Positions 9,935 through 35,204 of a stretch of 64,000 nucleotides of DNA are shown here, piece after piece (positions within the stretch are counted from its first letter, which is position 1; each line of letters begins with the position of its first letter). The notes below the pieces were generated by a model. It had not been told where the DNA came from and searched no databases. It saw nothing but the letters and a program-made list of their open reading frames with translations. Made by a program: the position numbers and the translations under genes. Origin of the DNA: Hydractinia symbiolongicarpus (Eukaryota; Cnidaria; Hydrozoa; Anthoathecata; Hydractiniidae); contig NC_079882.1 of the NCBI RefSeq assembly GCF_029227915.1, positions 25,363,001 to 25,427,000 on the forward strand, read 5' to 3'.

Positions 9935-12900
9935 TTAACCAGATAAAAATGACGCAATAAATGCAACCCCTCTTTCGTAAAATGATCGGGCAGGAACAAC
10001 CCCAGTAGTGGTCATATCCAACGTAAACAACAATTCACAGCGAGTTTGATTTAAATACACAGGAAGCGTGACATCATTCGCACCAAGCTCAGGAGGATTT
10101 CTAGGATCAATCTTAGTCCATTGTAGACAGGTTTCTGGTAACTCTGTGGTTATAGTATCCACCAAACTCAACTGATTTTGTGTGCAAAGAGCACCTTGAA
10201 GCTTGAGACCTAAACAAATAAACTTGTTTTATATTATACCACGCTTGCTGTACGCCCGTAAGTATAGCTGCAAGCGGCAATGGATCATTCCTGAGAATTT
10301 TCCACGAACTTAGGACTAGTAAAAACCAACAATGACTTTTACTTACCAGAAACAACAAAACTACAGTCATCAACATTTCTTAGCGGTTGATTGGAATCAG
10401 CAACTGTGACTTTTAGATACAACTCCTCCAATGACCATTGGTTAGCTTGTGCAACGTATTGTCTTGTCGCGGTTATGTAAGCTTCGGGTATAAACAAACC
10501 TCCAAGCCACACTTTAACATTCTTTAATTCCTTTGCGCCAGCAGAATTTGTAGCCTTGGAGATTGCTTGCAGCTGTTTCATTCTTTCCGCCAAATCAACT
10601 ACCCACTGAATTACAGTTAGATCCTTAACAGTTGTGTACCTAAATAGGTATAAGTTTGGTTGTAAACACGCGCTGCGAAAATATAACATTAAACGCAATT
10701 TATGCTCAGTTAGTTAGCCATTCATCAAACCAGAAATGGTATGACTGGGGCGGCATGTAACTCATCACAGCATGAATGAAAGTAAAAATTTGAAAAGACC
10801 TACCTGTTCCAGGTTTTTGGTATAACACCTGTCACTAAGTCGCTTATTAGCAAACGTAGGTCATTCGTTTGTTTTCGTTGACCCTCGCAAACGTCCATAA
10901 TTTCGTTTAGATCGTGACGCATGTCCTTGAGAAGTTTCACACCTAGATTGATTTCTCTTTCAAAAAACCTGAAAAGAGGATCTTTTATGTTCTCCACGGT
11001 ACGTTTAACGGGTTGTATTACCTAAAAACAATAAAACTCAGCTCAAAATATAAATATATGAAAGAAAATATGAGTTTACTAATTTAAAATTTATTTGCTC
11101 AGTTAAAAGCCACTCATCATTCCCAATGGTAAGACTGGGGCGGCATAATATCTCATCACAGCCTTAAGTTTACACAACATGTAAAGAAGCTCACCTGAGG
11201 AAGCAGATTCAACCAGTTTCGCACAGATTGTTGAAGTGTTTTCATCCACTGTGGTCTTGAATCAACCCCAAAACCTCCTTCTTCCTTGGTGGCAATCTCT
11301 GGAGTGTACTCCAATTCATCGTCCTCTGATTGCATACGCATTTTCATTAATTTCACAAGCGTCGTCTCACCAAGGTTAGTAAGGATAACTTTCTCAGCAT
11401 TATTGGGCAAACCAAGCCATGAAGGCGATTGGTAATCAGGTAAGCCTTCGCACCACTGCACAAACTGTTCACGGCGTACACCATCAGGAATTTCAACAGA
11501 TTTTCCTTTCTCACCTTCTACGTTCGTAACAAGGGGAAAGTCAGATTCGAAACTTTTTTTGGTGAACAATCGATCAATAAAAGATTGAAGCAACTTCTGA
11601 TCAAAATCGTTGTCAATACGACCCCCGTATATTGATTGACCAAGCAACATACTGAATGCATCCCATGGTAATTTCTCAGGAGGGATGTTTGCTCTATTTT
11701 GAGCTACAGAAGCAATCCAAGTGTCGAGCATGTCGAAAGCAACTCTCAAATCAGACTCGTTGAATTCGTATGTCTTTGACCAACCAAGAGGGGCATAACG
11801 AAGACGTTCCTGCACAATAGCATGGAACCAGGCTAACAAGAAGTAAAGTCTAGCTCTTTCTCCAGGAACTTGGGACATGCGAGTTGCAGAAACTGTGCTA
11901 AATGTTCTGAGCAAGTTAGCTTTAATTCCAGGAGGCGGTTCATATACAAATATTCTTGACGCTCTTAATAAATTTACAGGAACTTTTGGATTAATCTCCA
12001 TCGTCATAAATAGCCTAAAATTTGGATGTGGTTGCAACGTATGCAATCGCTTCTCTAAAGAGACTAACCACTGTGTAGCAAGATGTACGTTCTTTAGCAA
12101 CACCCATCTTCCAGCTTTTACAGAGGCACTTATGGTTTTTTCAGCAAGACTAAACCCTTCAGCAGAACCAAGAGCAATTGATGTAATCTGTTTATTCGTC
12201 ATTGCTACCAAATCATCAACACGACTGCTCACATCATAGCCAGGCGCAGAGCATAGTAACATTGGTGTTTGTGCTTTGATCTAAGAAAATAAATCTCATG
12301 AATAGAGGCACCTTAAATTTTTTATTACAAAAAAATGTTGATCTTTAAAGTCCTAACCTCTTTTTCAACTACTGTGACCATATCCATTTCCTGATCTGCA
12401 GCATGTAGGAAAGAGTCTCCTAAAACAGCTGTTGTGAAGCGTCTCAGCATTGTGTGAATATTGTCTGGCCTAAATGCTTGCACAACCAGGGTTTCATACA
12501 TAACTTCACCAATTGAAGCTAATGACAAACAAACACTTTTTAGAAATAACATGACGTTGGTAAGAGAGAGAGGGAGGGGTAATCTCAGTGTAACTATTAT
12601 TGACCACATTTTTTTTTCAGAGCGATGCGGAATAGTTATCATCATTGATATCAGGAATCCAGCAAAACATGTTTTAAATATATAAACGTACTTAATGGCT
12701 CAGGTGTTTCCCAACATTTAGGCACTGCTTGTGTAGCGTTTACACTTGACATCCATGCAAGTAACTCCTAAAGACAAAAAAATTAAGTTTTAATCAGAAG
12801 TCGAAACAATACAATTTCTTTATGTTTACCTCAGCGTGTGTAACATATATCATCATCATTTTAAGAACGATGCGGAATGTTAACTGTCATCACAGGTAGT

Positions 12901-35204: not shown

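Follow-up and report, generated by a model that had tools for sequence, protein, structure and literature searches.

The cytoplasmic dynein heavy chain gene of Hydractinia symbiolongicarpus as a probable host of about 30 intronic small nucleolar RNAs

The stretch of DNA analysed here (hereafter the window) comprises 64,000 nucleotides (nt) of the hydrozoan Hydractinia symbiolongicarpus (contig NC_079882.1, positions 25,363,001 to 25,427,000 of the forward strand), and its minus strand carries a gene for the cytoplasmic dynein 1 heavy chain. Elements resembling small nucleolar RNAs (snoRNAs) are found on the dynein strand in the majority of its longer introns, and these elements are the subject of the present work.

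The gene model was built by dynamic programming and mended by alignment to the human DYNC1H1 chains of the PDB, against which the spurious members of the 69 exons in the initial model were discarded. The resulting frame comprises 4,638 residues, with the stop codon at 9935-9937, and matches DYNC1H1; the human alignment starts at query residue 138, with the first exon outside it, and model residues ~2,390-3,000 lie outside it too. All 55 coding introns show GT-AG borders, and their sizes are bimodal (26 measure 68-115 nt, the other 29 at least 137 nt). Intron 1 spans 33534-35078 in the final model and in the scan of introns alone, and 33534-35050 in the per-intron shuffles and the whole-strand scans. 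With the first 2,391 residues as a query (full-length relatives fell outside the length window), the best long-stretch match among the 116 proteins listed was a eukprot entry of 72% identity and 75% coverage, whose label we take to be an Aurelia annotation; a cnidarian affinity of the predicted protein is weakly supported.

From our own scan for a C box, a D box and a terminal stem, we curated 27 box C/D elements in 22 introns, including one decayed copy. Together with three H/ACA elements (one at the Rfam cut-off and two candidates), they occupy, on the dynein strand, 24 of the 29 introns longer than 130 nt, two of the 24 by H/ACA candidates only. The C box (RUGAUGA) and the D box (CUGA) are present at proper spacing, some letters being degenerate, in 26 of the 27 C/D elements, while one has no D box. 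The D boxes of introns 14, 53 and 24c (copy c of intron 24) were set manually with paralogs or Rfam as a guide, the scan preferring other boxes in 14 and 53. With scores below 12, the elements of introns 21 and 24c were included for their resemblance to a neighbour; the intron 34 element scores 11 within the intron alone, under the 12 used for the counts. A preliminary description of this DNA had already recognised the cytoplasmic dynein heavy chain gene and reported snoRNA-like structures in 24 of its 29 coding introns longer than ~130 nt, out of 55, and both the gene and these counts are reproduced here. Its single decayed C/D element also stands, and its totals of 26 C/D and two H/ACA elements become 27 and three. 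In intron 33 (18901-19053), where no snoRNA was found, there are a few TTAGGG-like telomere-type repeats.

The elements show a marked strand bias. When the introns alone were scanned at a score of at least 12, 24 C/D hits were obtained in sense and none in antisense orientation, vs. a mean of 0.73 and a maximum of 4 in 100 shuffled sets. At the same score, the whole-strand scan gave 25 intronic sense hits and no antisense hit in introns or exons (shuffle mean 0.88), and five further hits fell outside the gene, 2 of them on the minus and 3 on the plus strand of the window. A search with the Rfam models, proposed in the preliminary description as a check, returned five hits in the 64-kilobase window at the curated gathering thresholds, and all five lie on the minus strand within dynein introns. 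A relaxed Rfam search of 9000-36000 gave 49 hits, all to snoRNA families and several per element, of which 48 were on the minus strand (one of these exonic) and one on the plus strand. The "outside" controls in these scans were defined by position only. Outside the dynein gene, the window also bears a TBC-domain gene on the plus strand (49256-60470), presumably TBC1D1/4-like; within the span of this gene, the plus strand gave no C/D-like hits of score 12 outside the long open frames.

The elements also occupy a regular position within the introns. In all 20 C/D-bearing introns shorter than 400 nt, the end of the D box lies 62-85 nt upstream of the 3′ splice site (three of the 27 D boxes being set by hand), and in the eight introns with exactly one TGATGA/CTGA combination, where no choice was involved, the spacing is 64-80 nt. 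A distance of about 70 nt between the D box and the 3′ splice site is optimal for splicing-coupled C/D assembly. The terminal stems pair with a mean score of 5.74 vs. 2.29 when the partners are swapped among the 27 elements, the maximum of 2000 swaps being 3.30; in the eight unambiguous introns, the values are 4.94 and 2.20, with a maximum swap of 4.00. Weak stems (at most 3.5) are found in introns 2, 36, 51 and 53 and in the decayed copy. When stem halves were exchanged between paralogs (the 24a-c group left out), the mean was 6.19 for own partners (n=16) and 2.77 for crossed ones (n=22). Paralogous stems have thus been altered on both sides with their complementarity kept, which argues for selection on the RNA. 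In the intron 34 element, only 4 nt separate the C box from the 5′ splice site, and the longer stem would lie partly on exon bases. With this arrangement, which resembles that of a mirtron, debranching alone would yield a near-mature 5′ end. The 2.2-kilobase intron 24 (21850-24059) bears six C/D elements, one of them decayed, mostly remote from both splice sites; it may contain unrecognised non-coding exons, or its copies may be produced less well.

The guides were compared with ribosomal RNA (rRNA) references, human for 18S (length 1869) and 5.8S (157) and yeast for 25S (3396), and with lists of 2′-O-methylation sites, all entered by hand and checked in part against fetched rRNA. At least 9 pairs, G-U excluded, were demanded, starting at most 2 bases from the D or D′ box (at most one mismatch in D′), with the methylated base at D+5. 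Under these rules, 45 sites were predicted, of which 21, from 17 of the 27 elements, fall on known 2′-O-methylation sites, representing 14 distinct positions: 468, 627, 644, 1442 and 1703 in 18S and 805, 807, 817, 908, 2281, 2288, 2337, 2619 and 2946 in 25S rRNA. Elements with shuffled interiors (100 runs) gave on average 11.3 sites, 0.17 of them known, with a maximum of one known site, and 41 C/D-like hits from elsewhere (score at least 10.5; dynein exons, the other strand and the rest of the window) gave 19 sites, none of them known. The three copies assigned by Rfam to snR60 match A817 and G908, which we take to be both targets of yeast snR60; likewise, G2288 and A2281, reached from intron 6, are presumably the yeast snR75 and snR13 sites, and U1442 presumably the SNORD61 target. 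Eleven of the 14 target stretches are identical in the fetched rRNA loci, the shortest matches (9 letters) being possibly due to chance. The assignments to 25S A1143, A1240, U1267 and U2882 may be lineage-specific or fortuitous, and the three-copy element of intron 24 showed no convincing rRNA guide in the D+5 test. The box, stem-swap, guide and spacing tests agree with one another, as had been claimed on first inspection for the boxes, stems, guides and intron position.

As to H/ACA elements, the one in intron 11 scores 54.1 bits with the snR191 model (cut-off 46) and 60.1 with the SNORA74 model, under the cut-off of 71 for the latter, and its fold has a z-score of -3.77. Its 5′ pocket, inspected by eye without a control, fits GUAAC-U-A-UGACU, with U2258 of the hand-entered yeast 25S rRNA as the putative target. 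The two-hairpin elements of introns 43 and 46 are candidates only. The former has a fold z-score of -2.11, equalled by 5 of 200 shuffles, and a scanner value of -27.4 vs. -8.3 for the best of 20 shuffles; the tail triplet used in scoring was ATA, and an ACA lies 6 nt upstream. The latter has a z-score of -3.55, equalled by none of 200 shuffles, and was missed by our H/ACA scanner. This scanner proved unreliable, as in the Rfam-supported intron 11 it chose another stretch (-17.5, the best of 20 shuffles reaching -28.3). In intron 1, it proposed hairpin pairs on both strands (-19.7 and -21.8, without a shuffle control). Candidates in introns 9 and 55 were rejected, with fold z-scores of -1.17 and +0.40.

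Table 1. The dynein host gene and the snoRNA-like elements predicted in its introns (25S sites in yeast numbering)
Feature	Position	Strand	Remarks
Host gene, cytoplasmic dynein 1 heavy chain	9935..35204	-	4,638 aa, 55 coding introns
C/D snoRNA, intron 2	32810..32884	-	D guide to 18S G644
C/D snoRNA, intron 4	32064..32150	-	D′ guide to 25S G805
C/D snoRNA, intron 5	31729..31802	-	Paralog of intron 4; G805; relaxed Rfam hit Me28S-Am982
C/D snoRNA, intron 6	31277..31384	-	Weak SNORD15 hit; 25S G2288 (D′), A2281 (D)
H/ACA snoRNA, intron 11	29660..29855	-	SNORA74/snR191 family
C/D snoRNA, intron 11	29553..29630	-	25S C2337 (D′); U2882 (D, no known site)
C/D snoRNA, intron 12	29200..29265	-	Weak U83D hit; 18S A468
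C/D snoRNA, intron 14	28422..28494	-	Paralog of intron 12; 18S A468; D box hand-placed
C/D snoRNA, intron 19	26620..26698	-	Near-identical paralog of intron 11 C/D
C/D snoRNA, intron 20	26284..26357	-	ATGATTA/ATGA boxes, long stem; 25S A1240 (no known site)
C/D element, intron 21	25755..25827	-	Paralog of intron 20; scan score 9.5, within shuffle range
C/D element, intron 23	24771..24845	-	Rfam curated search and guide test
C/D element, intron 24 copy a	23953..24026	-	Orphan guide
C/D element, intron 24 copy b	23555..23628	-	Orphan guide
Decayed C/D copy c, intron 24	23065..23136	-	D box lost
C/D snoRNA, intron 24, SNORD61	22816..22882	-	18S U1442
C/D element, intron 24	22563..22638	-	Rfam curated search and guide test
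C/D element, intron 24	22116..22191	-	Rfam curated search and guide test
C/D snoRNA, intron 25	21519..21584	-	SNORD29 hit slightly under cut-off; 25S A2946
C/D snoRNA, intron 28	20619..20689	-	snoR77Y hit under cut-off; 18S U627
C/D snoRNA, intron 31	19804..19873	-	25S A807
C/D snoRNA, intron 34	18476..18551	-	From 5′ splice site; 18S C1703 via CAGA D′ box
C/D candidate, intron 36	17897..17969	-	Orphan; own scan
C/D snoRNA, intron 41	16092..16165	-	25S A1143, U1267 (no known sites)
H/ACA candidate, intron 43	14861..14996	-	Two hairpins
H/ACA candidate, intron 46	13812..13945	-	Two hairpins, ACA tail, imperfect H box
C/D snoRNA, intron 50	12826..12898	-	Paralog of intron 41; own scan and paralogy
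C/D snoRNA, intron 51	12580..12650	-	Guide akin to introns 41, 50
C/D snoRNA, intron 53	11094..11164	-	U31b hit under cut-off; 25S G2619 via CTTA D′ box; D box hand-placed
C/D snoRNA, intron 54	10701..10773	-	Paralog of intron 53; shared guide, D′ box CATA; left out of guide count

Many of the elements are related to each other. Twelve pairs have a local alignment score of at least 50 (only such pairs were listed), vs. a maximum of 32 in 200 shuffled comparisons, and eight paralog groups can be distinguished: introns 4/5, 11/19, 12/14, 20/21, 23/24e/24f, 24a/b/c, 41/50 (with 51 by its guide) and 53/54. The C/D elements of introns 11 and 19 are alike at 68 of 69 body positions, and their flanks, with 17 and 11 identities out of 30, are no more alike than chance allows (95% point 0.63, maximum 0.70). 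In this pair, the cleanest one, the likeness stops at the ends of the mature RNA, which suggests that it arose by copying of the mature RNA or by conversion rather than by plain DNA duplication. Copies a and b of intron 24 are alike downstream as well (23/30), and the trio 24a/b/c looks like a local DNA duplication. For the older pairs, flank decay accounts for the pattern equally well; of the remaining flanks, two reach 20/30 (53/54 upstream and 12/14 downstream) and two 19/30. Around the copies, no target-site duplications of note were found, the longest flank repeat being 7 nt (introns 19 and 53). Remains resembling non-LTR (long terminal repeat) retrotransposons, with what we take to be endonuclease/reverse transcriptase-like frames, lie at 6683-8880 and 44412-46127; enzymes of this kind could copy snoRNAs. 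For human C/D families copied within one host gene, recombination is favoured in PMC8178906, whereas the 11/19 pair fits an RNA-mediated copy or conversion better. Ongoing mobility of snoRNAs is described by Hoeppner and Poole (PMC3511168).

Taken together, the data make it very probable that the gene for the dynein heavy chain acts as a multi-snoRNA host, with splicing-dependent production of the snoRNAs and a load grown by intragenic copying. A single motor-protein gene thus appears to furnish a sizeable fraction of the tools for ribosome modification. RNA polymerase II would make the dynein pre-mRNA, and C/D and a few H/ACA ribonucleoproteins would form on most of the longer introns, the C/D ones with their customary spacing to the 3′ splice site. 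Splicing and debranching would be followed by exonucleolytic trimming of the intron down to the protected snoRNA, which would then direct the modification of rRNA, by 2′-O-methylation for C/D and pseudouridylation for H/ACA elements; the exons would yield dynein. The snoRNAs would have been copied from one intron to another inside the gene, giving the eight groups of two or three copies each. The established pathway is the basis from which the steps of transcription, processing and modification are inferred, and the anatomy, guides and target sites are seen in the sequence itself.

Several points weigh against this conclusion. Five sense-strand hits of score 12 fall within dynein exons in the whole-strand scan. 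The intron 21 element is, taken alone, within chance (26 of 100 shuffles equal it), and those of introns 12, 31, 34 and 36 are equalled by 2, 1, 4 and 3 of 100 shuffles, respectively. Seven elements of introns 23 and 24 sit 271-2108 nt from the 3′ splice site, off the usual spacing. The stem scores are partly selected, and the figure for the eight unambiguous introns is the fairer one because the scan itself uses the stem. The rRNA references and site lists were entered by hand and belong to other species (human and yeast), the matches had already been seen before the rules of the guide test were set, 24 of the 45 predicted sites coincide with no known one, and 10 of the 27 C/D elements lack a formally scored known site (intron 54 shares its paralog's guide). 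Finally, the stretches around 18S G644, A468 and U1442, three of the five 18S targets, are absent from the fetched loci. One rival reading is that AT-rich introns, in which TGATGA and CTGA strings are favoured, produced C/D-like motifs by chance, without any real snoRNAs: single motifs are short, and hits of score 12 occur in the exons and outside the gene alike. Against such an origin stand the strand bias, far beyond the shuffled sets, the Rfam hits, the stem swaps and the excess of guides to known sites over shuffled interiors. The chance reading is thereby refuted for the set as a whole, and we give it practically no credence (an antisense explanation is rejected as well), although weak single elements (e.g., those of introns 21 and 36) could be due to chance.

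It is also conceivable that the snoRNAs are real but mostly relics, few being active and the others decaying duplicates, with guides supplied by other genes. The lost D box at 23065-23136, the redundancy of several paralog groups and the degenerate boxes of introns 20/21 fit this picture, which we nevertheless consider unlikely, as both boxes are kept, if sometimes degenerate, in all elements save one, paralogous stems diverge and yet remain complementary, implying selection, and 17 elements retain an intact guide to a known site. A regulatory tie, whereby snoRNA output would be deliberately coupled to dynein expression or the snoRNAs would control dynein splicing in cis, seems to us quite improbable. 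The number and position of the snoRNAs would agree with it, and control of host splicing in cis is reported for SNORD2 in EIF4A2 (PMC10324135); on the other hand, broad expression is named as the primary requirement for hosting in PMC3511168. The multi-snoRNA host with splicing-dependent production is the explanation we retain.

Elsewhere in the window, an intronless NmrA-like gene on the plus strand (2038-3003) is a candidate for gene transfer. Metagenomes and transcriptomes of protists account for most of the 73 proteins listed as matches, and at least two of these belong to named bacteria; identity does not exceed 63%, apart from the gene itself and one metagenome entry of 80%.

Canonical intronic snoRNAs in a multi-snoRNA host are of a known kind, while the identity of the host and its load are unusual. 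Like the non-coding hosts UHG/SNHG1, GAS5 and SNHG14, the dynein gene bears many snoRNAs across successive introns, with C/D elements close to the customary 3′ splice-site spacing. In contrast to non-coding hosts of the UHG/GAS5 type, which belong to the 5′-terminal oligopyrimidine (5′TOP) class and whose exons encode no conserved protein, the dynein exons encode a conserved motor of 4,638 residues. As in ribosomal protein and translation hosts, including the ribosomal protein genes of sponges (PMC3412847), the snoRNAs are intronic and in sense orientation within a coding gene, and dynein differs from the known protein-coding hosts by its motor function and its load of about 30 snoRNAs. In a human survey (PMC10234308), 79 of 581 hosts carry several snoRNAs (two or more), nearly always with at most one or two others, and GAS5 is given as a multi-snoRNA host. 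The preliminary description knew of no report of dynein in this role; in agreement, no dynein snoRNA host was found by title or abstract start among the papers listed in the literature pairing snoRNA terms with dynein or DYNC1H1, most subscription journals lying outside the search, and dynein was not named in the wider snoRNA-host literature queried. Its further suggestion, a link between a motor protein and ribosome maturation, is not shown by these data; the presumably broad expression of dynein, its 55 introns and copying within the gene suffice to explain the hosting, and do so more simply.

About 30 snoRNAs in one conserved coding gene without ribosomal function go far beyond the human survey, and five of them reach the gathering thresholds, which shows how incomplete Rfam annotation can be in such animals. 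Tentatively, and with more doubt than confidence, one may picture dynein as a long-standing super-host in the lineage of this animal, in which introns would be 70-100 nt by default, nearly all longer ones would be kept by their snoRNA cargo, snoRNAs would hop among introns, and dynein transcription would set a sizeable and partly unique supply of guides. In any case, the gene offers a natural case for what makes a host gene and how snoRNAs move, since guides, stems and flanks can be compared directly across eight intragenic copy groups.
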